Shown piece after piece: positions 19,148 through 61,371 of a DNA stretch of 64,000 bases. The stretch's first letter is position 1, and each line of letters starts with the position of its first letter. Origin of the DNA: Limimaricola soesokkakensis (lineage in GTDB: Bacteria; Pseudomonadota; Alphaproteobacteria; Rhodobacterales; Rhodobacteraceae); assembly GCF_900172345.1 (NCBI RefSeq), contig NZ_FWFY01000005.1, positions 62,001 to 126,000 of the forward strand. Direction: 5' to 3'. The position numbers and the translations under genes are program-made. The notes beneath the pieces are model-generated. The model did not search any database, was not told the DNA's origin, and worked only from the letters and a program-made list of their open reading frames with translations.

Positions 19148-20197
19148 TCAGATCGGGTTCGCCTCGGCGTATTTGCGGAAGAAGGCGAGGAAGGCGCGAT
19201 CGGGATCCTCGGCCGGGGACTTGCCCTTGGACCATTCGCGCCACTGCCCCTCGATGTTGTAGATGTCGTAGCCGGGGAAGCGCAGCCGCGCCGTCTCGTA
19301 GGTCTCGGTGCGCAACGCCTCGCCCTGCCGGTCGAGCCAGGCCGGGCGCGGCCGCGGCGGGGTCTGGCCCGGGATCGTGGTCGTGCCGCCCTGCCCGCGC
19401 GCCTCCTCGGCGGCCCGCGCCCGGCGACCGGTGCTGGCGAAGCTCAGGCTGCGCTCGGTCTTGTCGGTGGCATCGCCATCCTTGCGCCACCAGCGCAGCT
19501 CCACATGGGTCACGCTGCGCCCTGTCTTGATCGGCGCGATCTCGACCATGTAATCCGACAGCGCGCAGACCTCGGCCACCGCCGGATCGATCGCCCGCAG
19601 CCGCAGGTTCGACCACGAGGTCAGCTTGCCCTTGGGCACGCCGAGCACGGCGCGGATGCCATCGAGCGTGAAAGTCTCGGAGGACTTCCAGCGCAGGTTG
19701 CCGCGCTTCTGCACCATCTCGTAGAGCGTCAGCGCGTATTTCGACGACAGCGCGAACATCACCTCGCGCTGCAGCCGGGCGAAGACGGTGGAGTTGGTGA
19801 TCACCTTGCGCAGCCGCGCCGGGATCTCGTATTCGAACAGACCATCGCTGCGCGCCATCTCGACGTTGCCACCGAGGAGCTGCACCCGCTCGACCGCCGG
19901 CTTGCCGTCCCAGATCACCTCCATCTTGACGATCGCGCTCATCAGCCGCTCGATCGAGTCGCCGATCCGGTCGTTGGAATTGTGGTTGCCCCGCAGGTCG
20001 GACTTGGCGATCACATGCATCACCGGCTTGTCGATCGCCTCCCAGGCATTCTCCAAGAGCTGGTTGTAGATCCGGCGGTCGGCGAGGGTGAGCGGCGTTA
20101 CCTCGATCAGGTCGACGAGCTCGCCCGGCTTGATCAACGTCTCGGGTGTGGGCCGCGCGTCGACCGTGCGGTAAGAGGGTTGGGGCAGCTTTGCCAT
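19148..20197 (-). CDS. repB: RepB-type plasmid replication initiator (Rep_3 family)
   Basis: A 349-aa initiator with the tandem winged-helix layout of Rep_3 proteins: LTLADRRIYNQLLENAWEAI, then LLGGNVEMARSDGLFEYEIPARLRKVITNSTVFARLQREVMFALSSKYALTLYEMVQKRGNL (conserved SKYAxxLYE motif near residue 155) and FTLDGIRAVLGVPKGKLTSWSNL. These proteins bind iterons and open the origin. It is divergent from parA and parB, with a block of five 22-bp iterons in between, the arrangement of RepB-type Roseobacter plasmids. The C-terminal extension of about 100 residues (AAEEARGQGG to the end) is partly low complexity. An inverted repeat at 20230-20243 may mediate autoregulation. Confidence 0.93.
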   Translation of the reverse strand: MAKLPQPSYRTVDARPTPETLIKPGELVDLIEVTPLTLADRRIYNQLLENAWEAIDKPVMHVIAKSDLRGNHNSNDRIGDSIERLMSAIVKMEVIWDGKPAVERVQLLGGNVEMARSDGLFEYEIPARLRKVITNSTVFARLQREVMFALSSKYALTLYEMVQKRGNLRWKSSETFTLDGIRAVLGVPKGKLTSWSNLRLRAIDPAVAEVCALSDYMVEIAPIKTGRSVTHVELRWWRKDGDATDKTERSLSFASTGRRARAAEEARGQGGTTTIPGQTPPRPRPAWLDRQGEALRTETYETARLRFPGYDIYNIEGQWREWSKGKSPAEDPDRAFLAFFRKYAEANPI

Positions 20198-20229
20198 GTC
20201 TTGACCGCCAATGCGCGTTACCTGTTGCG

Positions 20230-20243
20230 CATACTTTTGTATG
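20230..20243. promoter_or_regulatory. Inverted repeat upstream of repB, candidate autoregulatory site
   Basis: CATACTTTTGTATG has perfect 5-bp arms around TTTT, 33 bp before the repB start. Rep_3 initiators often repress their own gene through an inverted repeat related to the iterons in such a position. The resemblance to the iterons here is only partial. Confidence 0.45.
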
Positions 20244-20284
20244 GGCGGAGATGTAAGTCAATCGACAGCGGTCGCGGGGAGGGC

Positions 20285-20306
20285 CACCCGATAAGTAAGG
20301 TTTGAG
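20285..20306. repeat. Isolated iteron-like copy
   Basis: CACCCGATAAGTAAGG matches the core of the 22-bp iterons further right (CCCGATAGGTA type). Its distance of 103 bp from the first ordered copy is not a multiple of 22, so it is an outlying site, possibly used by RepB for control of repB expression. Confidence 0.45.
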
Positions 20307-20388
20307 ACGGCGGCGGGTGGAGGCGGCGATTCGCATCCCCCTGCAAAACAGGGCTTTGCGAGAGGGGTGATTCCTGCAATCCCGGCCC

Positions 20389-20498
20389 ACCCCAAAGGTA
20401 AGAGTTCGGCACCCGATAGGTATCGCCAGCCATCCCGATACGTATCGCCAACCCACCCCATATGTTGCGCCAATCGTCCCGAAAGGTAAGCGATACAG
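20389..20498. repeat. Five 22-bp iterons: origin of replication
   Basis: The cores AAAGGTA (20394), ATAGGTA (20416), ATACGTA (20438), ATATGTT (20460) and AAAGGTA (20482) recur at exactly 22-bp spacing, each preceded by a CCC run, over about 110 bp between the divergent repB and parA genes. Exact two-turn phasing puts every site on the same helix face, as in iteron-type origins bound by Rep_3 initiators. No clear DnaA box was found by eye. Confidence 0.85.
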
Positions 20499-20647
20499 GC
20501 GCTTCGCGCAGTGAAACAAGGGCCCCGCGCGCCATGAACAGAGAACCCTAGAATCCAGAACAAGGGGTTTTCGGATTCGGATTTCGGGGTTTTGGGCGCC
20601 CTGCGGAGCCGATTTGCTACAAATCGGGATGGGGGAGGGGGGGCGAG

Positions 20648-20733
20648 GTGCCGCAAAATCCGAACCGTGCGGCTCTTTGGGCCCGAGTGCGGTATTTGCG
20701 CCACGCCATGGACAGGTTCGGTTTTCGCGGCAC
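20648..20733. repeat. 19-bp inverted repeat with a 48-bp spacer in the origin-parA gap
   Basis: The arms at 20648-20666 (GTGCCGCAAAATCCGAACC) and 20715-20733 pair at 17 of 19 positions. The structure lies between the iterons and the parA start. It could form a cruciform, a structured parA leader or a binding site for ParA or an antisense RNA. No promoter was identified with confidence. The other 20500-20647 sequence contains short TTTCGG/GGGGTTTT repeats and no gene. Confidence 0.5.
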
Positions 20734-20810
20734 CGCTCTGCGGATAGCGCACTTTACCTCCGTGCCGCGCCACCGCATCTTGGAGGCCGAACGCAGGCAA
20801 GGATATCGCT

Positions 20811-22010
20811 TTGGACATGGAAGACTATCCCGTCGGGCTGGATGAAATCGACGCGCTGGCGGGCCGGGCAGGGAGGGTGATCGAGAAGCTCCGCGCGCGG
20901 GTCTTCGCGCCCGGCGTCAGCAAGAGTCTCGATCTGCGCTTCAACGTGCGCAGCGCTGCCGAGATGTGCGGCCGCACCGAGAAGGCGCTGCGCGACGCCG
21001 AGGGCGACGGCCGGCTGCCCGAACCCGAGAAGGACCCCGATACCGGACGGCGCACCGGCTATTCGCTGGCCGAAGTGAACCGGATGCGCGAGGTGTTCGG
21101 CACGCTGCCGCGGCGCGCGCCCACCGATCCGGCGACGGTGCTCGCGGTGCAGAATTTCAAGGGCGGGGTCGGCAAGTCGACGGTGGTGACGCATCTGGCG
21201 CAGTATCTTGCGCTCAAGGGCTACCGCGTCTGCGTCATCGATTGCGACAGCCAGGCCTCCACCACCAGCGTCTTCGGCCTCAACCCCGACGTCGATGTCG
21301 ACGAGGAGGAGGACACGCTCTACCCGTTCTTCCGCCATGGCGGGCCGACCAGCCTGCATTACGCGCTGCGCGCCACCTACTGGCCCGGCATCGCGCTGAT
21401 CCCCGCCAATCTTGGTCTCTATGACGCCGAGTACGAGTTCGCGGCCCGCATGGTGCGCGAACAGGATTTCGTGCTCGACCGGCTGCGCGCCGGCATCGAG
21501 ACGATCTCGGACCAGTTCGACGTGATCCTGCTCGACCCGCCGCCGGCGCTCGGGATGATCTCGCTGTCGGTGCTGCGCGCGGCCAACGCGATCATCGTGC
21601 CGGCGCCGCCCAACAACATCGATTTCGGCTCGACCGCGCATTTCCTGCGGATGATGTCCTCGACCCTGGGCGAGCTCGCGCAACATGGCGGGACGCGGGG
21701 CTATCATTTCGTGAAGATCCTTGCGACCAAGATGAACGACCAGAAGAGCGCCCATGGCGCGATCAAGCGGATGATGGATGCGGTGTTCCCGCAGGACATG
21801 CTGTCGGCGGTCCTGAAGGACAGCGCCGAGATCGACAACGCGACGGCGAACCTTATGACCGTCTATGAGCTGACAGGGGCAGCGACCCGCACCGAGACGC
21901 ACAAGCGCTGCCGCGTCTATCTCGATGCGGTGGGGCGCGAGGTCGAGACCGAGATCCGCAAGACATGGCCGAGCCACCACGCGGCGCTGCGCAAGGAGGG
22001 GATCCTGTGA
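20811..22010 (+). CDS. parA: ParA-family partitioning ATPase
   Basis: A 399-aa type Ia ParA. Residues of about 40-95 form a DNA-binding region with a MerR-like helix (FNVRSAAEMCGRTEKALRDAE). The ATPase begins with the deviant Walker A KGGVGKST at residues 117-124, followed by CVIDCDSQAST and VILLDPPPALGM. The long N-terminal HTH lets such ParAs repress their own promoter. The ATG at 20811 (MDMEDY) was taken; an ATG 6 nt later is equally possible. It overlaps parB (GTGA), so both are translated together. It segregates the replicon with ParB and parS. Confidence 0.93.
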   Translation: MDMEDYPVGLDEIDALAGRAGRVIEKLRARVFAPGVSKSLDLRFNVRSAAEMCGRTEKALRDAEGDGRLPEPEKDPDTGRRTGYSLAEVNRMREVFGTLPRRAPTDPATVLAVQNFKGGVGKSTVVTHLAQYLALKGYRVCVIDCDSQASTTSVFGLNPDVDVDEEEDTLYPFFRHGGPTSLHYALRATYWPGIALIPANLGLYDAEYEFAARMVREQDFVLDRLRAGIETISDQFDVILLDPPPALGMISLSVLRAANAIIVPAPPNNIDFGSTAHFLRMMSSTLGELAQHGGTRGYHFVKILATKMNDQKSAHGAIKRMMDAVFPQDMLSAVLKDSAEIDNATANLMTVYELTGAATRTETHKRCRVYLDAVGREVETEIRKTWPSHHAALRKEGIL

Positions 22011-22984
22011 GCAGGAAGCACGACGACATCTTCAACGACGTCCTGAACGGTCTCGACGAGACCGAAACCCGCGAGGACGGGGCCGGGCGGGCGCAGACGC
22101 GGTTTCTCAAACGCTCCACCGCCATGTCCGAACAGGTCGCGGGCGGGCGCCAGGAAAAGGTGCTGCGCCTCGTCGATCCGGCCAGCTGCGTCATGTGGGA
22201 GGGGCACAACCGCGCCTACGAATTGCTGACACCCGAAAACTGCGCCGACCTGATCGAAGGGATGAAGGCGCAAGGCCAGCAGGAGTTTCCCGCTATCGTG
22301 CGGCGGCTGCGCCCGGCGGGGCAGGGGGACGGCCCCGAGTTCGAGGTGATCTGCGGCGCCCGGCGGCATTTCACGGTGAGCTGGCTTCGGGCCAACAACT
22401 ACCCGCAGTTCCGCTACCTGATCGAGGAGCGCGAGCTGACCGACGAGGAGGCGTTCCGCCTCGCCGATATCGAGAACCGCGACCGCGAGGACATCTCGGA
22501 TTTCGAGCGTGCCCGCGACTATGCCCGCGCGGTCGAGGCCTATTACGGCGGCCAGCAGAAGCTGATGGCCGAGCGGTTGCAGGTCTCCCCCGGCTTCCTG
22601 TCGCGGTTCCTGCAACTGGCCAAGCTCGAGCCCGAGATCGTCGCGGCCTTCCCGTCGATCCGCGACATCAAAGAGCTGCATGCGCGGCAGCTGCGGCCGC
22701 TGATGGCGGAGCCCGGCGCGCGCGAGGCGGTGCTGGCGGAGGCTAGGGCCATTGCCGAGGAGGGCGCGCGCCTCGCCGCCCCGGCGGTGCTGACGCGGCT
22801 CAAGGCGGCGGGCAAGGTGACGGCGCCGCGCAAGCGTTCGGACCGGGTGGTCCAGCATCGCGACGGCAATGTCAGCATTCGCCGCAGGGGCAAATCCTAC
22901 GTGATGGAGTTCGACGCCGATCTCAGCGACGCGGCGTTGCGATCCGCCCTCGACCTGTTCCTGAAGGAGCGGAAGTCGCGCTGA
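22007..22984 (+). CDS. parB: ParB-family partition protein
   Basis: A 325-aa protein starting with GTG at 22007 that overlaps the parA stop; the longer frame upstream is ruled out because it lies inside parA. It contains a ParB/Srx-like domain (ICGARRHFTVSWLRANNYPQF and EAFRLADIENRDREDISDFE) and a KorB-type HTH (AERLQVSPGFLSRFLQLAKL), with a C-terminal dimerisation region. The GARRH box is the CTP/DNA-spreading motif of ParB proteins. A parS-like palindrome starts at the last base of its stop codon. Confidence 0.93.
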   Translation: MSRKHDDIFNDVLNGLDETETREDGAGRAQTRFLKRSTAMSEQVAGGRQEKVLRLVDPASCVMWEGHNRAYELLTPENCADLIEGMKAQGQQEFPAIVRRLRPAGQGDGPEFEVICGARRHFTVSWLRANNYPQFRYLIEERELTDEEAFRLADIENRDREDISDFERARDYARAVEAYYGGQQKLMAERLQVSPGFLSRFLQLAKLEPEIVAAFPSIRDIKELHARQLRPLMAEPGAREAVLAEARAIAEEGARLAAPAVLTRLKAAGKVTAPRKRSDRVVQHRDGNVSIRRRGKSYVMEFDADLSDAALRSALDLFLKERKSR

Positions 22985-23064: not shown

Positions 23065-24084
23065 TCAAAGCGCCGTCAGGAAGATCCCGGCGAGGAACAG
23101 CGTCTCGGCGGCGATCAGCGCGATCGCGGCGCCGCCGACCTGCATCACCGTGGCGAGCGAGGTCTTCATGCCCACCGCCGCGATCGCGATCAGCAGCGCC
23201 CAGCCCGATGCATCGGCCAACAGGCGCCCCAGCATCTCCGGCACCAGCCCCAGCGAGTTCAGCGCCCCGAGCGCTAGAAAGCCCAGCACGAAGCCCGGGA
23301 TCAATGGCGGCCGCTTGCCTCCGGCGCTGTCGCCGAGGCCGCCGGCGCGGATCGCCAGCGAGAACAGCAGCACGACCGGGGCCAGGAGGCTGACCCGGAT
23401 CAGCTTGACCAGCGTCGCGGTCTCGCCTGCCTCGGGCGAGATCGAGAAGCCGGCGCCGACCACCTGCGCGACGTCGTGGATCGTCGCGCCGAGGAACACG
23501 CCGGTGGTGCGGGTGTCGAAGCCGACCCAGCCGGTCAGCAGCGGGTATGCGATCATCGCCAATGTCGAGAGCAGGGTGACGCCGAGCACGGTGAAGCTCA
23601 GATCGGTCTCGGAGCTCTCGTCGCGCGGCAGCACCGCGGCGATGGCCATGGCGGCGGAGGCGCCGCAGATCGCCACCGCGCCCCCGGTCAGCAGACCGAA
23701 GCGCCAGCCCTTGCCGAGCGCGCGGCCCGCGAGAAAGCCCAGCAGGATCGTCGCGGCCACCGCCGCCACGATCAGCCCGATCAGGCCCGCGCCGAGATCG
23801 AGCAGAAGTTCGACCGAGATCCGCGCGCCCAAGAGCGCCACGCCGAGGCGCAGCACGTGGCGGGCGGTGAAGCCGATGCCCTCGACGCAGCGGCCTTCGA
23901 GCGACAGGAATTGCAGCGTCATCCCCAGCAGCAGCGCCATCAGCATCGCCGGCGCGCCATAATGCTCGGAGATGAACTGGGCCGCCACGGCGACCACGGC
24001 GGCGACGGTGAAACCGGGCAGGAGAACGGGCAGGCGCAGCACCGGCGCGCGCAGCCGGGCTGGCGCGATCGCATCAATGAACAT
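23065..24084 (-). CDS. cuyZ: YeiH/CuyZ-type membrane protein, putative sulfite exporter
   Basis: A 339-aa protein with about ten hydrophobic segments and the motifs of the YeiH (conserved hypothetical 698) family: ALLLGMTLQFL, LRLGVALLGARIS, TGGAVAICGASAAMAIA and GATIHDVAQVVGAG. Members of this family are found next to sulfonate desulfonation genes, where CuyZ is proposed to export the sulfite released by CuyA. It is the last gene of the minus-strand sulfonate operon, 57 bp after the HisD-like gene with a hairpin in the gap. Transport of sulfite is inferred from context. Confidence 0.85.
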   Translation of the reverse strand: MFIDAIAPARLRAPVLRLPVLLPGFTVAAVVAVAAQFISEHYGAPAMLMALLLGMTLQFLSLEGRCVEGIGFTARHVLRLGVALLGARISVELLLDLGAGLIGLIVAAVAATILLGFLAGRALGKGWRFGLLTGGAVAICGASAAMAIAAVLPRDESSETDLSFTVLGVTLLSTLAMIAYPLLTGWVGFDTRTTGVFLGATIHDVAQVVGAGFSISPEAGETATLVKLIRVSLLAPVVLLFSLAIRAGGLGDSAGGKRPPLIPGFVLGFLALGALNSLGLVPEMLGRLLADASGWALLIAIAAVGMKTSLATVMQVGGAAIALIAAETLFLAGIFLTAL

Positions 24085-24106
24085 CGGGGATTTCCTTGGC
24101 GTTGAC

Positions 24107-24131
24107 GGCGCCCCGGTCGGGCCGGGGCGCC
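24107..24131 (-). terminator. Intra-operon hairpin before cuyZ
   Basis: Perfect 10-bp arms (GGCGCCCCGG and complement) with loop TCGGG, 11 nt past the HisD-like gene stop. No T-run follows. It may reduce read-through into cuyZ or protect the upstream message. Confidence 0.5.
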
Positions 24132-24141
24132 GGGGGAGGGC

Positions 24142-25455
24142 CTAGCCCACGACCTTGGCGGCGGCGGGGCCGGCCTCGGTCACGGCGTAGCGGGTCAGGC
24201 GGATGTCGGCGGCACGGGCATGGCCCTCCATCCCCTCGACGCGGCTGATCCGGGCGGTGGCGCCGCCGAGCTGACGCGAGGCGGCGCGGTCGGCGCGCTG
24301 CCAGGTCACCGTCTTCATGAACTTGTGCACCGAGAGGCCGCCGGTATAGCGCGCCGCCCCCGAGGTCGGCAGCACGTGGTTCGGACCCGAGGCCTTGTCG
24401 CCATAGGCCACGGTGGTCTCTTCGCCGAGGAACAGCGAGCCATAGGCGCGCAGCCGGTTCAGCCACCAGTCGAGATCGGCAGCCTGCACGTGCAGATGTT
24501 CGGGCGCGTAGTCATCGGCGACCCGCGCCATCGCCTCACGGCTATCGCAAAGCATCACCTCGGCGAAATCGGCCCAGGCGGCACGGGCGCTCGAGGCGTT
24601 GGGTTCGGGCAGCGCGTCGATCAGGCCGGGCATGATCTGCATCACCTTTTCGGCGAGGCCGCGATCGGTGGTGGCGAGCCACACCGGCGAGTTCCAGCCA
24701 TGCTCGGCCTGGCTCACGAGGTCGATGGCGACGATCTCCGGATCGGCGGTCTCGTCGGCCAGCACCATGCTGTCGGTGGGGCCGGCGAACATGTCGATGC
24801 CGATCTCGCCGAACAGGATGCGCTTGGCCTCGGCGACGTACTGGTTGCCGGGGCCGACGAGGATGTCGGCGCGCGGCAGCCCGTAGAGCCCCTCGGCCAT
24901 CGCCGCGACACCCTGCACGCCGCCCAAGTTGAGGATCGCGTCGGCGCCGCAGAGATCCATGGCGAAGAGGATCGCCGCCGGGATGCCCTCGCCGGGGCGC
25001 GGCGGCGAGCAGGCGGTGATGTGGCCGACGCCCGCCACCTTGGCGGTGGTGATGGTCATCAGCGCCGAGGCGATGTGGCTGTAGCGCCCGCCGGGCACGT
25101 AGCAGCCCGCCGCAGAGACCGGGATCTGCCGCTGCCCGGCGATCAGACCGGGCAGGATTTCGACCTCGCAGCCCTGTACCGTCCGCATCTGCGCCTCGGC
25201 AAAGCGGCGGATGTTGGCATGGGCGAAGCGGATGTCGTCCTTCAGGCTCTCGGGAAGACGGGCGGCGGCGGCGCGGCGGGTGTCCTCGTCGACCAGCACC
25301 GGGCCGTCCCAGCGGTCGAGCTCGCGGGCATAGGCCTCGACCCGGGCCTCGCCGCCCGACTTGATCTCGGCCAGCATGGCGCTGACGGCGGCGCGGGTGT
25401 CGGCCTGGTCGCTTTCGGCGTGGCGCTTGGCGGATTTGAGATAGGTCACGGTCAT
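24142..25455 (-). CDS. HisD-family dehydrogenase, HpsN-like (sulfonate alcohol to acid)
   Basis: A 437-aa histidinol-dehydrogenase-family protein: GCYVPGGRYSHIASALMT, ILNLGGVQGVAAMAEG, VGPGNQYVAEAKR, FAGPTDSMVLAD and EHGWNSPVWL match the catalytic core, including the zinc and NAD regions. There are no other his genes nearby. Known relatives in this context are HpsN enzymes, which oxidise 2,3-dihydroxypropane-1-sulfonate to sulfolactate with two NAD+. As HisD itself oxidises an amino alcohol to an amino acid, an alternative substrate here is an amino-hydroxy-sulfonate (cysteinolate to cysteate). It follows a TauABC transporter in the same operon (8 bp after tauC). Confidence 0.82.
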   Translation of the reverse strand: MTVTYLKSAKRHAESDQADTRAAVSAMLAEIKSGGEARVEAYARELDRWDGPVLVDEDTRRAAAARLPESLKDDIRFAHANIRRFAEAQMRTVQGCEVEILPGLIAGQRQIPVSAAGCYVPGGRYSHIASALMTITTAKVAGVGHITACSPPRPGEGIPAAILFAMDLCGADAILNLGGVQGVAAMAEGLYGLPRADILVGPGNQYVAEAKRILFGEIGIDMFAGPTDSMVLADETADPEIVAIDLVSQAEHGWNSPVWLATTDRGLAEKVMQIMPGLIDALPEPNASSARAAWADFAEVMLCDSREAMARVADDYAPEHLHVQAADLDWWLNRLRAYGSLFLGEETTVAYGDKASGPNHVLPTSGAARYTGGLSVHKFMKTVTWQRADRAASRQLGGATARISRVEGMEGHARAADIRLTRYAVTEAGPAAAKVVG

Positions 25456-25463
25456 GTCGGGTC

Positions 25464-26357
25464 TCACATCTTGCCTTTCCAGGGGATGACCTTGCGCTCG
25501 ATCCAGCGCATCAGCAGGTCGAAGGCATAGGCGATCGCGGCGATCACGATGATCCCCATGATCACGGTCGGGGTCTGCAGGAACTGGCTGGCGGAGAGCA
25601 CCATGTAGCCAAGCCCCTTGGTCGCGGCGACCATCTCGGCGGCGACCAGCGTGGTCCAGCCGAAGCCGACGCCGACGCGCATCGCGGTCAGGATCTCGGG
25701 CAGCGCCGAGGGCAGGATCACGTGGCGCATCACCTGCCAGCGCGAGGCGCCGAAGCTGTAGGCGGCATGGATCTGCTCGATCGCGGCGGAGCGCACGCCG
25801 GCGCGAGCGCCGAGCGCCACGGGGGCGAAGACCGACAGGAAGATCAGCAGCACCTTGGAGGTCTCGCCGATGCCGAACCAGATGATCATCAGCGGCAGGT
25901 AGGCCAGCGGCGGGATCGGCCGGTAGAACTCGATCGGCGGATCGAACAGGCCGCGCATGACCGGGCTCATCCCCATGGCGAGGCCGAGCGGGATGCCGAC
26001 GGCGCAGGCCAGAAGGAAGGCGCCGAAGACGCGGGCGGTCGAGACCGCGACATGTTCGAGGAAGGAGGTGTTGGTGAAGCCGTTCTGCCAGACATCGACG
26101 AACTTGGCGACGATGGCCTGCGGGCTTGGCACGAAGAGCGGCTTGACCAGACCCAGCGCGGTGATCGCCCACCAGACGAAGAGCAGGAACAGGATCGAGA
26201 CGACCGAGAGCCACATCGTGTCGCCCTGTCCGGGCACGCCGTAGGTCTCGCCGGGCTTGGTGGGGCGACCGCGCGCGAACCAGGCGAAGACGCCGCTGCG
26301 CGGGTTGATGCGGGCCTTTTCGGCGACGCTGGTGCTGTGCTTGACGGTCTCGATCAT
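25464..26357 (-). CDS. NitT/TauT-type ABC transporter permease
   Basis: A 297-aa inner-membrane protein with six predicted spans and the BPD_transp_1 coupling region (AAYSFGASRWQVMRHVILPSALPEILTAMRVGVG, the EAA-like loop). PPIEFYRPIPPLAYLPLMIIWFG is typical of TauC/SsuC permeases. Its ATG overlaps the ATPase stop. The transporter, encoded with CuyA and an HpsN-like enzyme, should import a C3 sulfonate. Confidence 0.9.
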   Translation of the reverse strand: MIETVKHSTSVAEKARINPRSGVFAWFARGRPTKPGETYGVPGQGDTMWLSVVSILFLLFVWWAITALGLVKPLFVPSPQAIVAKFVDVWQNGFTNTSFLEHVAVSTARVFGAFLLACAVGIPLGLAMGMSPVMRGLFDPPIEFYRPIPPLAYLPLMIIWFGIGETSKVLLIFLSVFAPVALGARAGVRSAAIEQIHAAYSFGASRWQVMRHVILPSALPEILTAMRVGVGFGWTTLVAAEMVAATKGLGYMVLSASQFLQTPTVIMGIIVIAAIAYAFDLLMRWIERKVIPWKGKM

Positions 26358-27142
26358 GCCGCTTCCTCCTCATCGGCGAAGATGATGCCGAGCACCTCCT
26401 CGCGCAGGCGGATGAATTCCGGGGATGCCTTGATTTGCCGGGCCGGCTCGCCCGCGAGCACGCGGCGCGAGAAGGGCAGGTCGAAGCGGTGCGAGATGCG
26501 GCCCGGACGGGGCGACATCACGATCAGCTTGGTGCCCATGAACAGGGCCTCTTCGACGCTGTGGGTGATGAAGAAAACCGATTTGCCGGTGTCGTTCCAG
26601 ATCCTGAGGATCAGCTCCTGCGCCTTTTCGCGGGTCAGCGCGTCGAGCGCGCCCAAGGGCTCGTCCATCAAGAGCACCTTGGGGTCGCAGGTCAGGGCGC
26701 GGGCGATGCCGACGCGCTGCTGCATGCCGCCCGAGAGCCGGTAGACCGGGGATTTCTGGAACCCGTCGAGGCCCAGCAGCTTCACGAAATCCTCGGCGAT
26801 GGCGAGCCGCTTGGCCTCGGCCACGCCCTGCATCTTGAGCCCGAAGGCCACGTTCTCGATCACGTTGAGCCAGGGCAGCAGCGCGTGTTTCTGGAACACG
26901 ACCGAGCGGTCGGCGCCGGGGCCGGTGACCGGGCGGCCATCGAGCAGGATCTCGCCCGAGCTGGGCGCGAGAAAGCCCGCGATCAGGTTCAAAAGCGTGG
27001 ATTTGCCGCAGCCGGAGGCGCCGAGCGCCACCACGAAATCGCCCTCGGCGATGGCAAGATCAATGCCGCGCAGCGCCTCGACCGGCGGCCGGCCCTCGGC
27101 TGCGGGAAACACCACGGAGGCGGATTTGATGTTCAGTCCCAT
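26354..27142 (-). CDS. NitT/TauT-type ABC transporter ATPase
   Basis: A 262-aa ABC ATPase: Walker A GASGCGKST, signature RLSGGMQQRVGIARAL, Walker B VLLMDEPLGALDALTRE and switch His in FFITHSVEEA. The sequence is characteristic of TauB/SsuB. It powers the permease encoded directly after it (4-bp overlap). It is separated from the binding-protein gene by a 63-bp gap with a hairpin. Confidence 0.93.
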   Translation of the reverse strand: MGLNIKSASVVFPAAEGRPPVEALRGIDLAIAEGDFVVALGASGCGKSTLLNLIAGFLAPSSGEILLDGRPVTGPGADRSVVFQKHALLPWLNVIENVAFGLKMQGVAEAKRLAIAEDFVKLLGLDGFQKSPVYRLSGGMQQRVGIARALTCDPKVLLMDEPLGALDALTREKAQELILRIWNDTGKSVFFITHSVEEALFMGTKLIVMSPRPGRISHRFDLPFSRRVLAGEPARQIKASPEFIRLREEVLGIIFADEEEAA

Positions 27143-27169
27143 TGGACCACTCCTCGTCGGGGTCTGGGG

Positions 27170-27197
27170 GGTCCCGGCCCGCGCGGGGGCCGGGACC
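27170..27197 (-). terminator. Intra-operon hairpin between the binding-protein and ATPase genes
   Basis: Perfect 11-bp arms (GGTCCCGGCCC and complement) with a 6-nt loop, 8 nt past the binding-protein stop. It lacks a T-run, so it should act as a 3'-end stabiliser or attenuator that favours binding-protein mRNA. Confidence 0.6.
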
Positions 27198-27205
27198 GGG
27201 GGCCG

Positions 27206-28192
27206 TCACTGGGTGGCGGCGGTGCCGATCTCGGTGTTCACGAAGCCGGAATAGTCCTCGGCCACCTGATCGATGCGCCCGGCTTCCTTGAGGAAAGCGG
27301 CGGTGTCGCGCATCGTCTCATGGGCGCTGCCGAGCCAAGTCTCGCCGAGCTGCTCGGAGAGCGGCACGAAGGTGAAGCCTTCGAGGATCGTGGGGATCTG
27401 CGCGGCGTCGGCGCCGGTCTCGGCGGCGATGGTCTGCACCGGTTCGCTCTCGGCGGTCCAGGCGGCGGGATCGGCGAGATAGGCGGCGTTGGCCTCGTCC
27501 ATCGTCCTGGCGAAGGCGGCCACGGCCTCGGCGTTCTCGGCGGCGAACTCGGCGTTCACCACCCAGGCGTCGAAGGTCGGGAAGCCCCATTCGGCGGTCT
27601 CGGCCGAGGTGGCGAGGCGGGTGCCGGTCTCGAGGATCTGGTTCTGCACCGGCTGCCAGATGAAGGCGGCGTCGATCGCGCCCTGTTCCCATGCGGCGGC
27701 GATCTGGTCGGGGGGCATGTTCAGCAGGGTCAGGTCGGAGGCGTCGATCCCGGCATGGTCGAGCGCGCCCATCAGCGAGAAATGCGCGGTCGAGCCCACC
27801 GGCACCGCGACCCGCTTGCCGGCGAGATCCTCGAGCGTTTCGATCTCGGCGCCATCGCGGGCGATCAGGCTCTCGGCCGAGCCCAGCACCTGCGCCAGCA
27901 TGAACATCTCCAGCTCGACGCCCTGGCTGGTGGCGATGGCGAGCGGCGAGGAGCCGAGCTCGGCGAGCTTGATGTCGCCGGAGGCCATGGCGGCGATCAC
28001 CTCGGAGCCGGAGCCGAACTTGCGCCATTCGATGTCCCAACCGGTGGCTTCGTCGAAGCGGCCCTCGGCCAGCGCCACCTGCATCGGCGTCGGGTTGCCG
28101 AAATGACCGATGGTCACGGTCTCGGCCTGAGCCGATCCGGCGGTCAGGAAGGTGGTGAGCGCGAGCGCTACGCGTGTCGTCGTCCGTGTCAT
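27206..28192 (-). CDS. TauA-type ABC transporter substrate-binding protein
   Basis: A 328-aa periplasmic protein with signal peptide (MTRTTTRVALALTTFLTAGSAQA) and TauA/SsuA features: VTIGHFGNPTPMQVALAEGRFDEATGWDIEWRKF, IKLAELGSSPLAIATSQGVELEMF, and LAGKRVAVPVGSTAHFSLMGAL. TauA binds taurine; here the operon enzymes point to a C3 amino- or hydroxy-sulfonate. It lies 61 bp after the racemase-like gene. Confidence 0.92.
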   Translation of the reverse strand: MTRTTTRVALALTTFLTAGSAQAETVTIGHFGNPTPMQVALAEGRFDEATGWDIEWRKFGSGSEVIAAMASGDIKLAELGSSPLAIATSQGVELEMFMLAQVLGSAESLIARDGAEIETLEDLAGKRVAVPVGSTAHFSLMGALDHAGIDASDLTLLNMPPDQIAAAWEQGAIDAAFIWQPVQNQILETGTRLATSAETAEWGFPTFDAWVVNAEFAAENAEAVAAFARTMDEANAAYLADPAAWTAESEPVQTIAAETGADAAQIPTILEGFTFVPLSEQLGETWLGSAHETMRDTAAFLKEAGRIDQVAEDYSGFVNTEIGTAATQ

Positions 28193-28253
28193 TTCATATT
28201 CCTCTGTTGGTTGGCTGCACCGACGCTGTTCCCGCGCCGCTCTGCATGCGGTG

Positions 28254-28976
28254 TCAGGCGGCGGTGCCGTCTTCTTGAGTGGGCGCGCCGAGGGCGGCGT
28301 CGCGGATCGCCGCGACCAGAAGGTCGAGCGTGTCGATGCCCTCCGCTTCGGGCGCGAGCGCCCCGGCGATGAGCGAGAACTCGGTGCAGGCGACGAGTTG
28401 CAGCGTCGCGCCGCGACGGGCGAGATCGGCCGAGGCGGCGCGCAGCGCGGCGCGGCTGTCCTCGTCGGGTCCGTGCGCCTTGATCGCGCGGATCGCGGCC
28501 AGAAGCGCGTCCTCGTCCTGCGGGTGGAGCAAGGTGAGGCCGGCCTCGGCGCAGGCCCGGTCGAACAGGCCGATCCGGCGCAGCGCCGGCGAGCCCAGAA
28601 GACCCAGCTTGCCGCCCGGCCCGAGCCGTTCGGCGGCCCGCGCCACCGAGAGCGCCACCATGTCGATGAAGGGCACCTCGACGGCGGCGCGGATTTCGGG
28701 GGCGTAGTGATGCGCGGTGTTGCAGGGCATGGCCAGCGCGGTGGCGCCGCCCGTTTCGAGCCGGCGCGCCATCTCGGCCAGCACCGGGCCGGGATCCTCG
28801 CCGCGCCCCTCGATCAGCCGCGCGATGCGCGAGGGCACCTGCGGGTTCATATCGACGAGAAGCGGGATGTGGTCGGCGTCGTCGCGGGCCGGGGTGGCGG
28901 CGATCACGCGCTGCATCAGGAGCACCGTCGCCTCGGGGCCCATGCCGCCCAATATGCCGATCCGTTTCGGGGTCAT
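28254..28976 (-). CDS. Aspartate/glutamate racemase-family protein, candidate cysteate racemase
   Basis: A 240-aa cofactor-independent racemase-family protein with both catalytic cysteines in the expected settings: AMPCNTAHHY near residue 86 and LVACTEFSLI near residue 200. GILGGMGPEAT at the N-terminus is the family signature. These enzymes racemise aspartate or related acids by a two-base mechanism. Cysteate is the sulfonate analogue of aspartate and CuyA is encoded two genes upstream, so D-/L-cysteate racemisation is a reasonable inference, not shown. The ATG overlaps the aminotransferase stop by 4 bp. Confidence 0.8.
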   Translation of the reverse strand: MTPKRIGILGGMGPEATVLLMQRVIAATPARDDADHIPLLVDMNPQVPSRIARLIEGRGEDPGPVLAEMARRLETGGATALAMPCNTAHHYAPEIRAAVEVPFIDMVALSVARAAERLGPGGKLGLLGSPALRRIGLFDRACAEAGLTLLHPQDEDALLAAIRAIKAHGPDEDSRAALRAASADLARRGATLQLVACTEFSLIAGALAPEAEGIDTLDLLVAAIRDAALGAPTQEDGTAA

Positions 28977-30184
28977 ACCGCGCCCTCCGGGCTGCGCAGC
29001 GCCGCGAGGGCGGCGTCGAGATGATGGGCGATCGCATCGCAATCGGCCGGCTTGAAGGTCAGCGGCAACCGCATGTCGAACAGGGTCGAGAGGATCGCGT
29101 CGGTGCGGGGCAGGGCCTGCGCGCGCAGGTAGCGCCAGCTGCCATGGTTCGAGGTGAAGCCCACCGGCTCGGCGGCGCCGAACCATTTCAGCTCGACCCC
29201 GCGCGCCGCCGCCTCGGCGACCAGTTGCCGCGCCGCCTCTGCCCCGAGCCCCGGCAGCCGGAACTGGATCGAGGAGCCGACATAGAACTCGGGCTCGGGC
29301 CGCTCGGGCAGCGTCACGCCGGGCATGGCGGAAAGGCGCTCGGCCATCCGGTCGTGCAGCGCGTTCCAGCGGGCGATGGCGTCGTCGAGCCGCTCGAGCT
29401 GCGGCAGAAGGATCGCGGCGCGCAGATTGTCCATCCGCGCCGACATGTTCGGCGTCTCGAGCCGGATCTTCTCGAAATGCTCGGGCCCGGGCGCCGCGCC
29501 GTGGCGCTCGTAGAGCATGTAGGAGCCCGACATGATGATCGCGCGGGCCATCCGCTCGGGGTCGTCGGTGGTGAGGAAACCGCCCTCGCCGGAATTCATG
29601 TGCTTGTAGGTCTGGGTGCTGAAGCAGCCCATCGCGCCGAAATTGCCGGAGCGACGGCCGTTCCAGCGCGCGCCCATGGTGTGGGCGCAATCCTCGATCA
29701 CGGTCAGGCCGCAGTCGTCGGCGACCCGCATCAGCCGGTCCATGTCGCACAAGTGCCCGCGCATGTTCGACAACAGCAGGTGCCGGGCGCCCGAGGCGCG
29801 GGCCTTGGCGGCGAGGTCGTCGAGGTCGATCACCAGATCCTCGGTGATCTCGACCAGCACCGCCTCGGCCCCGATGGCGGCGACGGCGCCGGGCACGGGG
29901 GCGAGGGTGAAGGCGTTGGTCAGCACGCGGTCGCCGGGGCGCACGCCGCAGGCGCGCAGCGCGATCTGCATCGCCTGCCCGCCCGAGGCCAGCGCCAGAC
30001 AGTAGCGCGCGCCCTGCCAATCGGCATAGGCCGCCTCGAGCCGGGCGGTGAGCGAGGTCTCGCCCGGCGCGGTGTTGTAGCGGTGCAGCCGCCCGGTGCG
30101 GAGCAGCTCCAGCGCCGCCGAGATGCCCTCCTCCGGGATCGGCTCCTGCTGGGTGAAGCTACCGGTGAAACGCGTCTCGGCCAT
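28973..30184 (-). CDS. DegT/DnrJ/EryC1/StrS-family PLP aminotransferase
   Basis: A 403-aa fold-type-I aminotransferase. It shows SGGQAMQIALRACG near residue 75, the PLP-Asp in VIEDCAHTMGARW, and the PLP-Lys in STQTYKHMNSGEGGFL near residue 195. Family members usually aminate nucleotide sugars or cyclitols, but no sugar pathway lies here. Being between cuyA (4 bp gap) and the racemase-like gene (4 bp overlap), it is probably part of sulfonate metabolism, for example interconverting sulfopyruvate and cysteate, or a keto-sulfonate and cysteinolate. The reaction is unassigned. Confidence 0.85.
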   Translation of the reverse strand: MAETRFTGSFTQQEPIPEEGISAALELLRTGRLHRYNTAPGETSLTARLEAAYADWQGARYCLALASGGQAMQIALRACGVRPGDRVLTNAFTLAPVPGAVAAIGAEAVLVEITEDLVIDLDDLAAKARASGARHLLLSNMRGHLCDMDRLMRVADDCGLTVIEDCAHTMGARWNGRRSGNFGAMGCFSTQTYKHMNSGEGGFLTTDDPERMARAIIMSGSYMLYERHGAAPGPEHFEKIRLETPNMSARMDNLRAAILLPQLERLDDAIARWNALHDRMAERLSAMPGVTLPERPEPEFYVGSSIQFRLPGLGAEAARQLVAEAAARGVELKWFGAAEPVGFTSNHGSWRYLRAQALPRTDAILSTLFDMRLPLTFKPADCDAIAHHLDAALAALRSPEGAV

Positions 30185-30188
30185 GGGT

Positions 30189-31214
30189 TTACTCCGCTGC
30201 CAGCTTGTCGCCCGGGGCGCGCTCGAACACCGCGTCATAACCGAACAGCGCCGCCGCCCCGCCGGTGTGGATGAACACCACCCGCTCGCCCTTCTTGAAG
30301 CGGCCCTTACGGATCTGGTCGATCAGACCCGCCGCGCCCTTGCCGGAATAGACCGGGTCGAGAAGGATGCCTTCGAGCTCGGCGAACATGCGGATCGCCT
30401 CGATCGTGTCCTCGCGCGGGATGCCGTAGCCGGGGCCGACATAGTCGCAGTTTGCGACCACGTCCTCGCGGGCGACGATGCCCTCGCAGCCGAGCTTCTC
30501 GGCGGTGAGGCGCGCCAGCTTGTAGACGTTTTCCTCCTGCTTCTCGCGCGGTGCGCGCACGCCGATGCCCAGAAGCGGGATCTTGGCGTTGATCGCCTTG
30601 AGGCCGGTGATCAGGCCGGCCTGGGTGCCGGCGGAGCCGGTGGCGGTGACGATGTGGTCGATTACCATTCCGCGATCATTGGCCTGGCCCACCAGCTCGA
30701 AGGCGCAGTTGACGTAGCCGAGCGCGCCGGTGGCGTTGGAGCCGCCGCCGGGGATGGTGTAGACCTTGGCGCCGTCCTTGCGGAAATTATCGGCCACCGC
30801 CTCCATCTCGGCATGCATGTCGAGATCGGGGCCGCGGGTCTCGGTGGTGGCGCCGTGCAGGTGGTCGAGCAGCACGTTGCCGTTGCGGTTGTAGTTGTGA
30901 TCCTTGGAGCCGGTGCGGTCCTCCAAGAGCAAGTGGCAGCGCAGGCCGAGCTTCGAGGCGAAGGCGGCGGTCTGGCGCGCGTGGTTCGACTGGGTCGCGC
31001 CCTGGGTCATCACCATGTCGGCGCCCATGGCCTGTGCCTCGGCCATGAGAAACTCGAGCTTGCGGGTCTTGTTGCCGCCGGTTGAGAGGCCGGTGCAGTC
31101 GTCGCGCTTGATCCAGATCTCGGGGCCGCCGAGTTCGGCGCTCAGGCGGTCGAGCCGCTCGAGCGGGGTGGGCAGATGGGCGAGATGGACGCGGGGAAAC
31201 CGGGCCAGATGCAT
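30189..31214 (-). CDS. cuyA: L-cysteate sulfo-lyase
   Basis: A 341-aa PLP enzyme of the D-cysteine desulfhydrase/ACC deaminase group. The start [43 protein letters not shown] (PLP-Lys in NKTRK) and [20 protein letters not shown] are very similar to the characterised Silicibacter pomeroyi CuyA as I recall it. It cleaves L-cysteate to pyruvate, ammonium and sulfite in the cytoplasm. It leads the minus-strand operon and is divergent from a LysR gene 113 bp away. D-cysteine desulfhydrase is the alternative, but CuyZ, the Tau-type transporter and the HpsN-like gene favour cysteate. Confidence 0.93.
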
Positions 31215-31327
31215 GTGACGCTCCCGTTCATAATTCACTATGGGAATACTGCGCCCGCGAATACCGCTATGCAAATGCGAAGTTCACATTGTAATATGCA
31301 GGATATGCAACTTAGCGGGACCCTTGC
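31215..31327. promoter_or_regulatory. Divergent cuyA/LysR promoter region
   Basis: This 113-bp gap is clearly AT-richer than its surroundings and contains repeated TATGCA elements (31269, 31298, 31306), two of them 8 bp apart in AATATGCAGGATATGCAACT. Such repeats in a divergent LysR promoter are candidates for the activator site, but no single inverted repeat stands out. Confidence 0.4.
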
Positions 31328-32230
31328 ATGCGCTTGGAATGGTTGGAAGACTTGATTGCCGTGGCGGAGACCGGATCCTTCTCGGAAGCCGCCGAACGCC
31401 GCTCTTTGACGCAGTCTGCCTTTTCTCGCCGCATTCGGCAGATTGAGGACTATGTCGGGGTCGAATTGTTCGACCGCAGCCGCAAGCCGGTGCAGCTGCA
31501 AAGGACCACCGAATCCCAGCGCGACCGAATCCTCCAGATCATCCGTACGCTGCGCCAGCTGGTCGCGGATCTGCGCAGCGGCAGCCAGATGGCCGAGAAC
31601 CACGTGGTGCTGGCGAGCCAGCACGCGCTGACCACCTCGCGCACGCCGCGGCTGCTGCAGGGCGTGCTGGCGCATCACGACTCGATCTCGATCCGGCTGC
31701 GCTCGGCCAATTTCGACGATTGCTACGGCCAGCTTCTGTCGCGCAAGGCGGATATCGCGCTGGTCTACCGGATCGAGGGGATCGCGCCCGAGGTGGAGGC
31801 CGACTATCTGGAGACGGTCGAGGTCGGGCATGACCGGCTGATCCCGGTCCATGCGGCGGCGCGGCGGGCCGATCACCTGCGCGACCGCGCCATGGGGCTG
31901 CTGCCGATCGTCTCCTACCCCGACGCGGTGTTTCTCGGGCAGGTGATGAACCTGCTGATCCTGCCGAACCTGCCGCAGCCGTTGCAGGCGGTGCAGCGGG
32001 TGGAGACGGCGCTGACTCTGGCGGCGCAGGAGATGGCGCAGGTCGGGATCGGCACCGCGTGGATTCCGCACAGCCTGGCGCGGGACCGGATCGCCGAGGG
32101 CAGCCTGATCGACCTTTCCGACGAGTTGCCGAGCTGCGAGTTGGTGATCACCGCGATGCGGCTGGCCGGGCCCAAGCGCCGCTCCGAGGACGCGGTCTGG
32201 ACCGAGCTGCTGAGCGAGGCCGGCATCTAG
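31328..32230 (+). CDS. cuyR: LysR-family regulator, probable activator of the cysteate operon
   Basis: A 300-aa LysR protein: N-terminal HTH MRLEWLEDLIAVAETGSFSEAAERRSLTQSAFSRRIRQIEDYVGVELFDR split across the usual positions 1-60, then a co-inducer-binding domain. It is divergent from cuyA, the classical LysR arrangement, and a LysR gene (cuyR) accompanies cuyA in other Roseobacters. The inducer is probably cysteate or a precursor. Confidence 0.85.
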   Translation: MRLEWLEDLIAVAETGSFSEAAERRSLTQSAFSRRIRQIEDYVGVELFDRSRKPVQLQRTTESQRDRILQIIRTLRQLVADLRSGSQMAENHVVLASQHALTTSRTPRLLQGVLAHHDSISIRLRSANFDDCYGQLLSRKADIALVYRIEGIAPEVEADYLETVEVGHDRLIPVHAAARRADHLRDRAMGLLPIVSYPDAVFLGQVMNLLILPNLPQPLQAVQRVETALTLAAQEMAQVGIGTAWIPHSLARDRIAEGSLIDLSDELPSCELVITAMRLAGPKRRSEDAVWTELLSEAGI

Positions 32231-46283: not shown

Positions 46284-47519
46284 TCAGCTGCGGCCCTTCC
46301 ACGGCACCAGCCGGGTTTCGGCCTGGCGCATCAGCATGTCGATGCCGAAGCCGATCAAGCCGATCAGGATGATGCCCATCATCACGATGTCGGTCAGCTG
46401 GAACTTGGAAGCGGCGATGATCATCATGCCCGCGCCCATCTGCGCCGCGACCAGCTCGGCGGCGACGACGGTGCCCCAGCACACGCCCATCGCCACCCGC
46501 GCGCCGGTGAAGATCTCGGGCAGCGAGTTCGGCACGATAACGTGACGCAGAATCTGCCATTTTGATGCACCGAGCGAATAAGCGGCGTGAATCTTGCTGA
46601 TCTTGACGCCGGAGACGCCGGCGCGCGCGGCGATGGTCATCACCCAGAGCGCGGCGAGGAACAGCAGCACCACCTTGCCGGTCTCCCAGATGCCGAACCA
46701 GATGATGACGAGCGGGATCAGCGCCAGCGGCGGCACCGGGCGCATGAACTCGACGATCGGGTCGAACCAGCCGCGGAACCAGCCCGAGAGCCCCATCGCG
46801 TAGCCAAGCGGAATCCCGACCGCCGCGCCGAGGGCGAAGCCGGTCAGCACCCGCAGCAGCGAGGCGCCGATATGCTCCCACAGCGAGTAGTTCTGGTAGC
46901 CGTTGGTCATGATCTCGATGAAGCGACCGACCACCGCCTCGGGCGAGGGCAGCCAGATCGGCTCCATCTGCAGGCCCTTTTCGGCGGCGAAGCTCAGCGT
47001 ACCCTTGGCGGTCATCGACACGGTGCCGTCCGCGACCGGAACCGTGCCGCCCGGCGTGATCCCGGTGCCGTTCACCGACACCACGCGCGCCTCGCCCGGC
47101 AGCGGGATCAGCTTGTCGCGGCCGCTCTGGACCGCGACCGCGACCTCGCCGGGCGCGTCGGCCTCGGTGGCGGGGAGCTGCCCATCCGGCCCGACGGTGA
47201 TCCGCACCCGGCCGTCGCTTACCGCGCCGTCGCCGGTTTCGGCCTGGTAGACGAAGGAGGTCTCGCCCGCGAAGGGGCCGGGCACGTGCAGCGGCACCAG
47301 CTTGGAGCCTGTGAAGGCGCCCCAGAGCAGGAAGATCACGACGACCGAGGCGATCGAGGCGATGCGGTCGGGACGGATCGCGCTCTCGTCGCCGAAGGTC
47401 ACGGTCTTGAGGCTGCTGAAATCGGCGCGGCGCATCCGGCCGCGGCGCAGCAGCCCGGCGGCGGTGGCGGCCAGCACGAAGGAGAGGATATAGACGAGGA
47501 GGATCGCGATGCCGGTCAT
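46284..47519 (-). CDS. NitT/TauT-type ABC transporter permease with a large extra N-terminal region
   Basis: A 411-aa permease. The C-terminal 200 residues are a normal TauC/SsuC permease: EHIGASLLRVLTGFALGAAVGIPLGYAM, PIVEFMRPVPPLALIPLVIIWFG and the coupling loop AAYSLGASKWQILRHVIVPNSLPEIFTGARV. The N-terminus is unusual: an extra membrane segment (ILLVYILSFVLAATAAGLL), a second near residue 60, then about 130 residues predicted to be periplasmic and rich in beta-type sequence (VRITVGPDGQLPATEADAPG and a VSVNGTGITPGGTVPVADG repeat-like stretch) before the usual core. Typical permeases have 250-300 residues. The start overlaps the ATPase stop. Substrate unknown. Confidence 0.88.
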   Translation of the reverse strand: MTGIAILLVYILSFVLAATAAGLLRRGRMRRADFSSLKTVTFGDESAIRPDRIASIASVVVIFLLWGAFTGSKLVPLHVPGPFAGETSFVYQAETGDGAVSDGRVRITVGPDGQLPATEADAPGEVAVAVQSGRDKLIPLPGEARVVSVNGTGITPGGTVPVADGTVSMTAKGTLSFAAEKGLQMEPIWLPSPEAVVGRFIEIMTNGYQNYSLWEHIGASLLRVLTGFALGAAVGIPLGYAMGLSGWFRGWFDPIVEFMRPVPPLALIPLVIIWFGIWETGKVVLLFLAALWVMTIAARAGVSGVKISKIHAAYSLGASKWQILRHVIVPNSLPEIFTGARVAMGVCWGTVVAAELVAAQMGAGMMIIAASKFQLTDIVMMGIILIGLIGFGIDMLMRQAETRLVPWKGRS

Positions 47520-49378: not shown

Positions 49379-49458
49379 GGGTCTGTCCTTGTTGGGTCTG
49401 GATATGGCCGGTCGGGGCGGCCGGGGTGACGATCGGTTTGCCCGATTTCTCGTGGGGC

Positions 49459-53036: not shown

Positions 53037-53116
53037 GTCGTCTCCAGTCACTGTCTTGGGGGGCGGGCCCGGCGCGGGCCCCATGGGCCTCGCCGGAGCG
53101 CCCCGATTGTCTCGGG

Positions 53117-55571: not shown

Positions 55572-55901
55572 TCTACCCTCGGACCGTTTCGGATTTGTGA
55601 CGAGTAGCGCGACAGATTGCCGCCCGGTCAATCGCGCCGAGGCTTCGTTCAGGGAAACAGAACGGGGGTGGGTGATCTGCTGAACGAAGGGCCGCCTCTG
55701 GCGGGAAACCCGGCCCGGCCCGGCCTGGCAGCGTCACGCGGTCGGCGGAATTTCGGGCGGGTTGCTCATCCGCGGGTCAGCTTCGAAAACCGCTCCCGCA
55801 GGGGGCTTCGGGGGGGTGCCAGCCCCGGCCCGGACCCGGATTCGAGGTCGACCGGGAGACGAAGCACGGGCATTGTCCGATGCGGGACATCCCGAGGTTC
55901 G
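55572..55901. promoter_or_regulatory. Divergent promoter region of the demethylation operon and its LysR gene
   Basis: A 330-bp gap with no convincing gene. It should contain the promoters for the minus-strand demethylation/transport operon and for the LysR gene. No unambiguous palindrome was seen by eye; a T-N11-A type LysR box cannot be excluded. Confidence 0.5.
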
Positions 55902-61359: not shown

Positions 61360-61371
61360 GAGAGGCCGGGC

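Follow-up and report, generated by a model that had tools for sequence, protein, structure and literature searches.

A stretch of 64,000 nucleotides of Limimaricola soesokkakensis DNA, referred to below as the window, carries on its minus strand, at 23065–31214, an eight-gene operon in the order cuyA-degT-cuyB-tauA-tauB-tauC-hpsN-cuyZ, with a LysR-family regulator gene divergent from it (31328–32230, plus strand; PF00126/PF03466). From comparisons of sequence and gene context, we think it somewhat probable that the operon is a catabolic route for cysteinolate (2-amino-3-hydroxypropane-1-sulfonate). The reading frames of all eight genes and of the LysR gene are open, with no internal stops. There are 4 bp between cuyA and degT, 61 between cuyB and tauA, 63 between tauA and tauB and 57 between hpsN and cuyZ, and degT/cuyB and tauB/tauC each overlap by 4 bp. 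With the ATG at 25455 as the start of hpsN, its gap to tauC is 8 bp; an upstream GTG start would give −4.

CuyA, a D-cysteate sulfo-lyase (30189–31214), scores 551.9 bits with NF052482 (cut-off 450). It is followed by a DegT/DnrJ/EryC1 aminotransferase (28973–30184; PF01041), in which the lysine ahead of the GEGG motif aligns with a lysine of 2c7t. The next gene (28254–28976) encodes the protein initially annotated as Asp/Glu-racemase-like; it can now be named more precisely as the cysteate racemase CuyB, since it scores 287.1 bits with NF052483 (cut-off 190), and the cysteines of its PCNT and CTE motifs align with those of the aspartate racemase 1jfl. The TauA-type sulfonate-binding protein (27206–28192) has the taurine-binding protein 6ssy as its top match in the PDB and passes TIGR01729 (321.7 bits, cut-off 304.25) but not NF008553. 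The TauB-type ATPase (26354–27142; PF00005; NF008421 336 bits, cut-off 357) and the TauC-type permease (25464–26357; PF00528; NF007545 319 bits, cut-off 342) both fall under their taurine equivalog cut-offs. The HpsN-type dehydrogenase, proposed here as a cysteinolate dehydrogenase, lies at 24142–25455, and the operon ends with a putative sulfite exporter of the CuyZ/YeiH type (23065–24084; PF03601 208.7 bits; TIGR00698 133.9, under the cut-off of 232.6). In the compared loci, family members are called CuyZ, SlcC or ComC as presumed labels, and the function of CuyZ is likewise presumed.

The order LysR/cuyA-degT-cuyB-tauABC-hpsN is found again in Shinella, Mesorhizobium, Ancylobacter, Cypionkella, Thioclava and Paracoccus, and the arrangement is therefore not due to chance. 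Among the operons compared the nearest is that of Limimaricola cinnabarinus, with proteins 84–97% identical. The open frames, the family models and this recurrence bear out the gene list of the initial annotation, which had been made from the sequence of the window and included the divergent LysR. In the mapped operons of the TauABC type the LysR gene adjoins cuyA, and of 22 LysR-cuyA intergenic stretches that were aligned, 19 contain a TGC[A/G]-N5/6-GCA dyad. In the window it takes the form TTGCA-N5-TGCA, within a putative LysR/promoter region at 31269–31310 (minus strand). The pattern is consistent with one regulon and is taken to mean nothing beyond that. A second block upstream of cuyA, TTTCGnATTnG, occurs in 14 of the 22 stretches and, applied strictly, is not in the window.

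The dehydrogenase and the cysteate enzymes

The dehydrogenase scores 427 with PF00815. Its top match in the PDB is 8wwe, '(R)-DHPS dehydrogenase' (DHPS, dihydroxypropanesulfonate), at 575 bits and 64% identity (253/394 residues); Cupriavidus HpsN (8v35) gives 501 bits and the best histidinol dehydrogenase 231.8. According to PMC11382572, in excerpt, the mark that sets HpsN apart from HisD is a G-R-Y-A/S-H motif (sulfonate-binding His126, with Lys353); the zinc ligands are Gln248, His251, Asp352 and His411, and the catalytic residues Glu318 and His319. The window protein has GRYSH, rather than the HisD-type G-S-A-P-L motif that lacks a His126 equivalent, together with the equivalents of Lys353, Asp352, Gln248, His251, Glu318, His319 and His411. 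The equivalent of Ser226 is Thr, as in every member of the three HpsN clades compared. This is the one HpsN-type gene in the genome. The other PF00815 match, on contig C38, is stronger (561 bits), does not have the HpsN motif and is presumably the true hisD.

The enzyme thus has in common with HpsN, the (R)-DHPS 3-dehydrogenase, the G-R-Y-[AS]-H motif and the zinc and sulfonate ligands. It differs from the HpsN of DHPS operons in its partners, which are cuyA, cuyB and tauABC instead of hpsO and hpsP, and it groups apart from most of them. Neither hpsO nor hpsP is present in the operon. Cupriavidus HpsN (CpHpsN) has been crystallised with L-cysteate, bound essentially in the mode of R-sulfolactate (PMC11382572, in excerpt), and the fold therefore takes the predicted product.

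The initial annotation had CuyA requiring L-cysteate, with the racemase providing the L-form, and an older annotation of Ruegeria pomeroyi likewise gives L-cysteate as the substrate of CuyA (PMC4334477, in excerpt). We now reverse this direction. CuyB interconverts L- and D-cysteate and CuyA prefers the D-form (PMC11382572, in excerpt), in agreement with the NCBIfam family names 'D-cysteate sulfo-lyase' (NF052482) and 'cysteate racemase' (NF052483); the stereochemistry assigned here to the two enzymes rests on these two sources. By our own stereochemical reasoning the oxidation of R-cysteinolate would yield R-cysteate, which is L-cysteate. With L-cysteate as the product of the HpsN-type enzyme and a CuyA that prefers the D-form, a racemase would be needed, working from L to D. 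Passing CuyA and CuyB equivalog cut-offs and carrying a putative CuyZ-like exporter, the operon resembles known cysteate degradation by CuyA-CuyB(-CuyZ); it differs from plain cysteate use by the addition of an alcohol-oxidising HpsN and an aminotransferase, which cysteate alone would make needless.

Two further CuyB matches came to light. On the megaplasmid of R. pomeroyi DSS-3, SPO_RS20085 (L204:11549-12247) scores 276.4 bits with NF052483 (cut-off 190) and stands directly behind a gene resembling that for dimethylglycine dehydrogenase (DMGDH); it is a candidate for the R. pomeroyi CuyB that PMC11382572, in excerpt, calls unknown. In another genome of the window's genus (G098, locus L185) the order is LysR-cuyA-cuyB, the CuyB match has one in-frame TGA, and at the thresholds applied the genome gave neither a DegT nor an HpsN-type match; this is perhaps a decaying operon.

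Gene context in the genome and the family

Searches of the window's own genome (99.99% complete) for HpsP (E ≤ 1e-70), SlcD (1e-100), ComC (1e-60), SuyB (1e-120) and SlcC (1e-60) gave no match at these thresholds, which leave room for weaker paralogues; the search of this genome did not extend to HpsO, ComDE or Xsc. These searches include those for slcD, comC, suyB and hpsP that had been proposed at the outset, and the missing link from sulfolactate to cysteate, at first noted for the window, holds genome-wide for these five markers. The same queries were run on 120 genomes of the family from 119 genera, the window's own included. Fifteen of them have an HpsN no more than 9 kb away from CuyA or CuyB (cuy-linked HpsN), and none of the 15 has HpsP. 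With strict identity cut-offs (SlcD 60%, ComC and SlcC 50%), any sulfolactate enzyme is present in 2 of these 15 (SlcC in G007, SlcD in G096), against 27 of 32 genomes with HpsP (Fisher p 4.7e-6, uncorrected for kinship); four of the five remaining HpsP genomes carry comDE near hpsN. Counting every listed match gives 4/15 against 28/32 (p 6.8e-5). In the other 73 genomes the corresponding counts are 10 (strict) and 29 (loose), so that the cuy group is at or under the background. Since these enzymes are mostly missing from genomes with a cuy-linked HpsN, most of these genomes would have no onward route for sulfolactate.

The phylogeny of HpsN closely tracks its gene context. From 94 HpsN-like proteins with more than 52% identity we dropped three short fragments; of the 91 in the tree, 74 could be labelled by context (39 cuy, 35 DHPS) and 17 could not. 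The collection does not include the HpsN of G093, which lies on a contig of 3.4 kb. Three changes of context suffice on the tree, whereas each of 200 label shuffles needed 18 or more. In the FastTree analysis a DHPS clade has 38 members, 31 of them with hpsO or hpsP nearby (support 0.99), and the window's cuy clade has 30, 28 of them cuy-labelled (support 0.82). A second group of 15 (support 0.96) comprises seven cuy members and eight without a labelled neighbour. A quick IQ-TREE run recovered the window's clade with 28 members (82) and the DHPS clade with 38 (72); rooted in this way, the second group does not form a single clade. Three genomes with two HpsN each (G027, G033, G067) were considered as evidence of specialisation and set aside; there is no cuy gene up to 9 kb from the second HpsN, and it is only in FastTree that their group forms a clade. 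At seven loci (L127, L137, L138, L147, L149, L151 and L153) an HpsN-type gene without a labelled cuy or hps neighbour is adjoined by a member of one gene family, LysR-like by eye.

The aminotransferase, left without a role by the initial annotation, is given only a tentative one here. DegT relatives occur in 94 of the 120 family genomes, the window's genome having the operon copy only; DegT is therefore not diagnostic, and we dropped it as an operon marker. It is missing from some operons (L155, L089); that of L155 reads cuyA-cuyB-tauABC-hpsN, with a DegT relative elsewhere in the same genome. The operon is modular in other respects also: LysR-cuyA-cuyB stands without HpsN in the stretch at L187, L189 and L190, and cuyA-cuyB with HpsN at L157. 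At many loci where DegT alone was matched (L063, L066 and others), it lies beside genes that resemble, by eye, glmS, glmU, HAD phosphatase and MFS transporter genes, the glmS-like family appearing in 18 loci. L010 and L150 each have a DegT relative close to hpsN-hpsO-hpsP, and no cuyA was matched in either stretch, which suggests a role tied to C3 sulfonates other than cysteate. Several operons of the TauABC type have an alpha/beta hydrolase gene after hpsN, or after cuyZ in L017 (L084:10323-11123, L007, L008, L016, L017, L155); the enzyme might set cysteinolate free from its conjugates or esters.

Next to cuyZ, at 19148–22981, are genes for a Rep3 initiator, ParA and ParB. As these adjoin the operon on a contig of 246.5 kb, it is probably borne on a plasmid or chromid.

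The second cluster: N-demethylase and transporter genes

About 15 kb from the operon, in the same window, lies a tetrahydrofolate-linked N-demethylase module with a second transporter of the sulfonate type (46.3–55.6 kb), which the initial annotation had overlooked. On the minus strand it comprises a permease (46284–47519; PF00528; 77% identical to the product of a Paracoccus seriniphilus gene upstream of cuyA), an ATPase (47516–48322; NF008421 284 bits, under the cut-off; 82% to P. seriniphilus) and a second TauA-like binding protein (48383–49381). This last shares 76% identity with the P. seriniphilus binding protein beside cuyA, on its upstream side, 61% with a protein of Ruegeria SCSIO 43209 encoded near cuyA and 34% with the operon TauA, and it is the only other TauA-like protein in the genome at E ≤ 1e-15. 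Then come purU, for a formyl-tetrahydrofolate deformylase (49494–50378; TIGR00655, over the cut-off), folD (50444–51334, start inferred; NF010785, over the cut-off), etfA (51352–52278; 71% to P. seriniphilus) and etfB (52278–53084; 78%), the last two matching electron transfer flavoprotein (ETF) alpha and beta models under their cut-offs. A DMGDH-like N-demethylase with FAD and GcvT domains (53151–55571, start taken from relatives; PF01266, PF16350, PF01571, PF08669) is 87% identical to its P. seriniphilus counterpart. A LysR gene on the plus strand (55617–56951) is divergent to the module; PF00126/PF03466 match from residue 116, and the real start is further downstream in the open reading frame. 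Beyond it, at 58244–63121, the same contig has cytochrome oxidase genes (COX1, COX2 and CtaG matches); open frames at 58.2–63.6 kb had been considered as MttB, DMGDH or LysR homologues and were rejected, two of them being cytochrome oxidase genes.

In domain make-up and companion genes (DMGDH, ETF, FolD, PurU) the module corresponds to tetrahydrofolate-linked N-demethylation of the dimethylglycine and sarcosine type. Unlike such systems it includes a TauA-like transporter, and the P. seriniphilus module is contiguous with cuyA-degT-cuyB-hpsN. There, on p449297, an uninterrupted run of 12 genes (63–87% identity) reads DMGDH-like, etfB, etfA, folD, purU, binding protein, ATPase, permease, cuyA, degT, cuyB, hpsN. 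One plasmid region of the gammaproteobacterium Pseudomonas sp. MPC6 contains cuyA, a YeiH-type exporter, hpsN, degT, TRAP genes, cuyB and a DMGDH-like gene, and also a glycine-betaine-type binding protein, etfB, an etfA-like gene, purU, folD, ETF-QO and a betaine-type transporter.

We surveyed 166 loci for a DMGDH-like or MttB gene (at least 45% identity) in the same stretch. Such genes were found at 12/41 loci with a cuy-linked HpsN, 0/34 cuy loci without HpsN, 2/36 DHPS loci, 1/38 loci with DegT only and 0/17 with HpsN only; the window's own locus, with a stretch ending at 42 kb, was scored negative, and eight of the 12 are roseobacter-type loci of similar make-up that are not independent. 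After removal of three near-identical copies (which leaves 0/32 cuy loci without HpsN), the p values against the cuy-HpsN loci are 7e-4 (cuy without HpsN), 0.015 (DHPS), 0.0016 (DegT only) and 0.012 (HpsN only). Restricting the count to stretches of at least 15 kb gives 11/36 against 0/23 for cuy loci without HpsN (p 0.004). A demethylase or second substrate-binding protein, counted together, occurs at 15/41, 0/34, 3/36, 2/38 and 2/17 loci of the five classes, in the same order. A DMGDH-like gene is also present at L205–L208 and L210, where no cuyA, cuyB or hpsN was matched in the stretch.

N-demethylation needs an amine, and the linkage therefore argues for an aminosulfonate and not DHPS. It suggests that methylated cysteinolate may be an upstream substrate. 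That the two clusters of the window form one dispersed system for N-methylated cysteinolate, which would be mono- or dimethylated or, where relatives have an MttB homologue, trimethylated, a betaine-like osmolyte, we propose tentatively, as a serious possibility that falls somewhat short of being probable. In such a system the second TauA-type transporter would import the methylated compound, the DMGDH-like enzyme, acting together with ETF, FolD and PurU, would strip its methyl groups, to be released as formate, and the cysteinolate left would enter the HpsN-CuyB-CuyA route. Among the matches listed in our literature search, no paper was by its title concerned with the bacterial catabolism of methylated taurines.

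Candidate substrates of the operon

In the route proposed for the operon itself, TauABC would import cysteinolate, and the HpsN-type zinc/NAD enzyme would oxidise its CH2OH group to the carboxylate by way of the aldehyde, yielding L-cysteate. CuyB would racemise this to D-cysteate, from which CuyA would release pyruvate, ammonium and sulfite; CuyZ would export the sulfite and the LysR protein would control the operon. DegT may be accessory, perhaps interconverting cysteinolate and its 2-keto form (3-hydroxy-2-oxopropanesulfonate). As far as the sequence indicates, cysteinolate is the simplest substrate that leaves no gap in the operon. The gap-free route of the initial annotation is thus retained on comparative evidence, with an enzyme of the HpsN type in place of the HisD homologue named there.

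Several observations weigh against this assignment. The substrate, zinc and catalytic columns are identical between the cuy and DHPS clades of HpsN, and the sequence therefore cannot tell a 2-amino from a 2-hydroxy substrate. Among the positions that do differ between the clades, 48, 142, 357, 378 and 381 were considered as marks of specificity and rejected, as the cuy clades have them in common with the proven Cupriavidus enzyme; they look like marks of lineage. The HpsN of the P. seriniphilus cuy operon (L088) sits in the DHPS clade, with the DHPS cluster of this organism on a separate plasmid, so that clade does not fix substrate. Demethylase genes accompany the two DHPS loci counted above, and if the natural enantiomer of cysteinolate led straight to D-cysteate, CuyB would be needless for it. 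For sulfolactate enzymes the cuy-HpsN genomes (2/15) do not differ from the background (10/73; p 1.0), and the absence of these enzymes therefore counts only against a sulfolactate route. Eighteen genomes have cuy-degT loci with no HpsN in the stretch, some stretches stopping at contig ends and two loci (L018, L047) giving cuyB and no cuyA; 14 of the 18 have an HpsN elsewhere, at 65–70% identity, one with an internal stop. In both of the genomes examined among these (G061 and G076, from the same places as G135 and G120) this HpsN is in a DHPS cluster, and in genomes of this type DegT is possibly a sulfopyruvate aminotransferase. In the comparisons as a whole the relatives are not independent, many stretches stop at contig ends, and the loci were partly found via DegT.

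The operon could alternatively serve DHPS: HpsN would oxidise R-DHPS to R-sulfolactate, a sulfolactate dehydrogenase would make sulfopyruvate, and DegT would be the missing aminotransferase (Coa) ahead of CuyB and CuyA. HpsN homologues are proven R-DHPS dehydrogenases, DegT is placed between cuyA and cuyB, G076 combines a DHPS cluster, SlcD and cuyA-degT-cuyB, and PMC11382572, in excerpt, lists DHPS degradation via a CuyA branch and calls Coa and CuyB of R. pomeroyi unknown. The pathway described there for R. pomeroyi and Roseovarius nubinhibens begins with HpsN and ends with CuyA, as ours would; it differs in that HpsP, SlcD, ComC and SlcC, and likewise SuyB, have no match in the present genome at the thresholds given above, and 13 of the 15 cuy-HpsN genomes have none of the four sulfolactate enzymes at strict cut-offs. 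Moreover, the L155 operon, with the same transporter, does without DegT, and a DHPS route would give the N-demethylase link no role. We hold this reading to be unlikely, while giving it real weight. It is also unlikely, to much the same degree, that HpsN takes both R-DHPS and cysteinolate in an operon devoted mainly to cysteate and cysteinolate, although the catalytic residues are the same in the three clades and P. seriniphilus has the DHPS-clade enzyme in its cuy operon. L-histidinol is a further substrate of RpHpsN, used with 691-fold lower efficiency, but this is tempered by CpHpsN, which has no detectable activity with L-histidinol (PMC11382572, in excerpt), and the close tracking of gene context by HpsN lineages argues for specialisation. 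A second histidinol dehydrogenase for histidine synthesis is highly improbable: the protein does pass the NCBIfam hisD model (423.9 bits over 243.8), but its motif is that of HpsN, a stronger HisD match lies elsewhere in the genome and its neighbours are sulfonate genes.

Cysteinolic acid can exceed dimethylsulfoniopropionate in phytoplankton cells (PMC8703288, in excerpt), and the sulfur aminolipids of roseobacters carry it as their head group (PMC11631085, in excerpt); according to PMC8319176, in excerpt, even how it is synthesised 'remains to be established'. In passages from part of the papers naming cysteinolic acid or cysteinolate, and by title among the matches listed in other literature searches, with subscription papers not covered, we found no catabolic gene set for the compound, and the novelty of the one proposed here is provisional. 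The operon offers candidate genes for every catabolic step, the role of DegT excepted. A cuy-linked HpsN, the second substrate-binding protein and the DMGDH-like gene could serve as markers for cysteinolate use in metagenomes. 'HisD' annotations, and readings of hpsN transcripts as DHPS use only, may mask another substrate.

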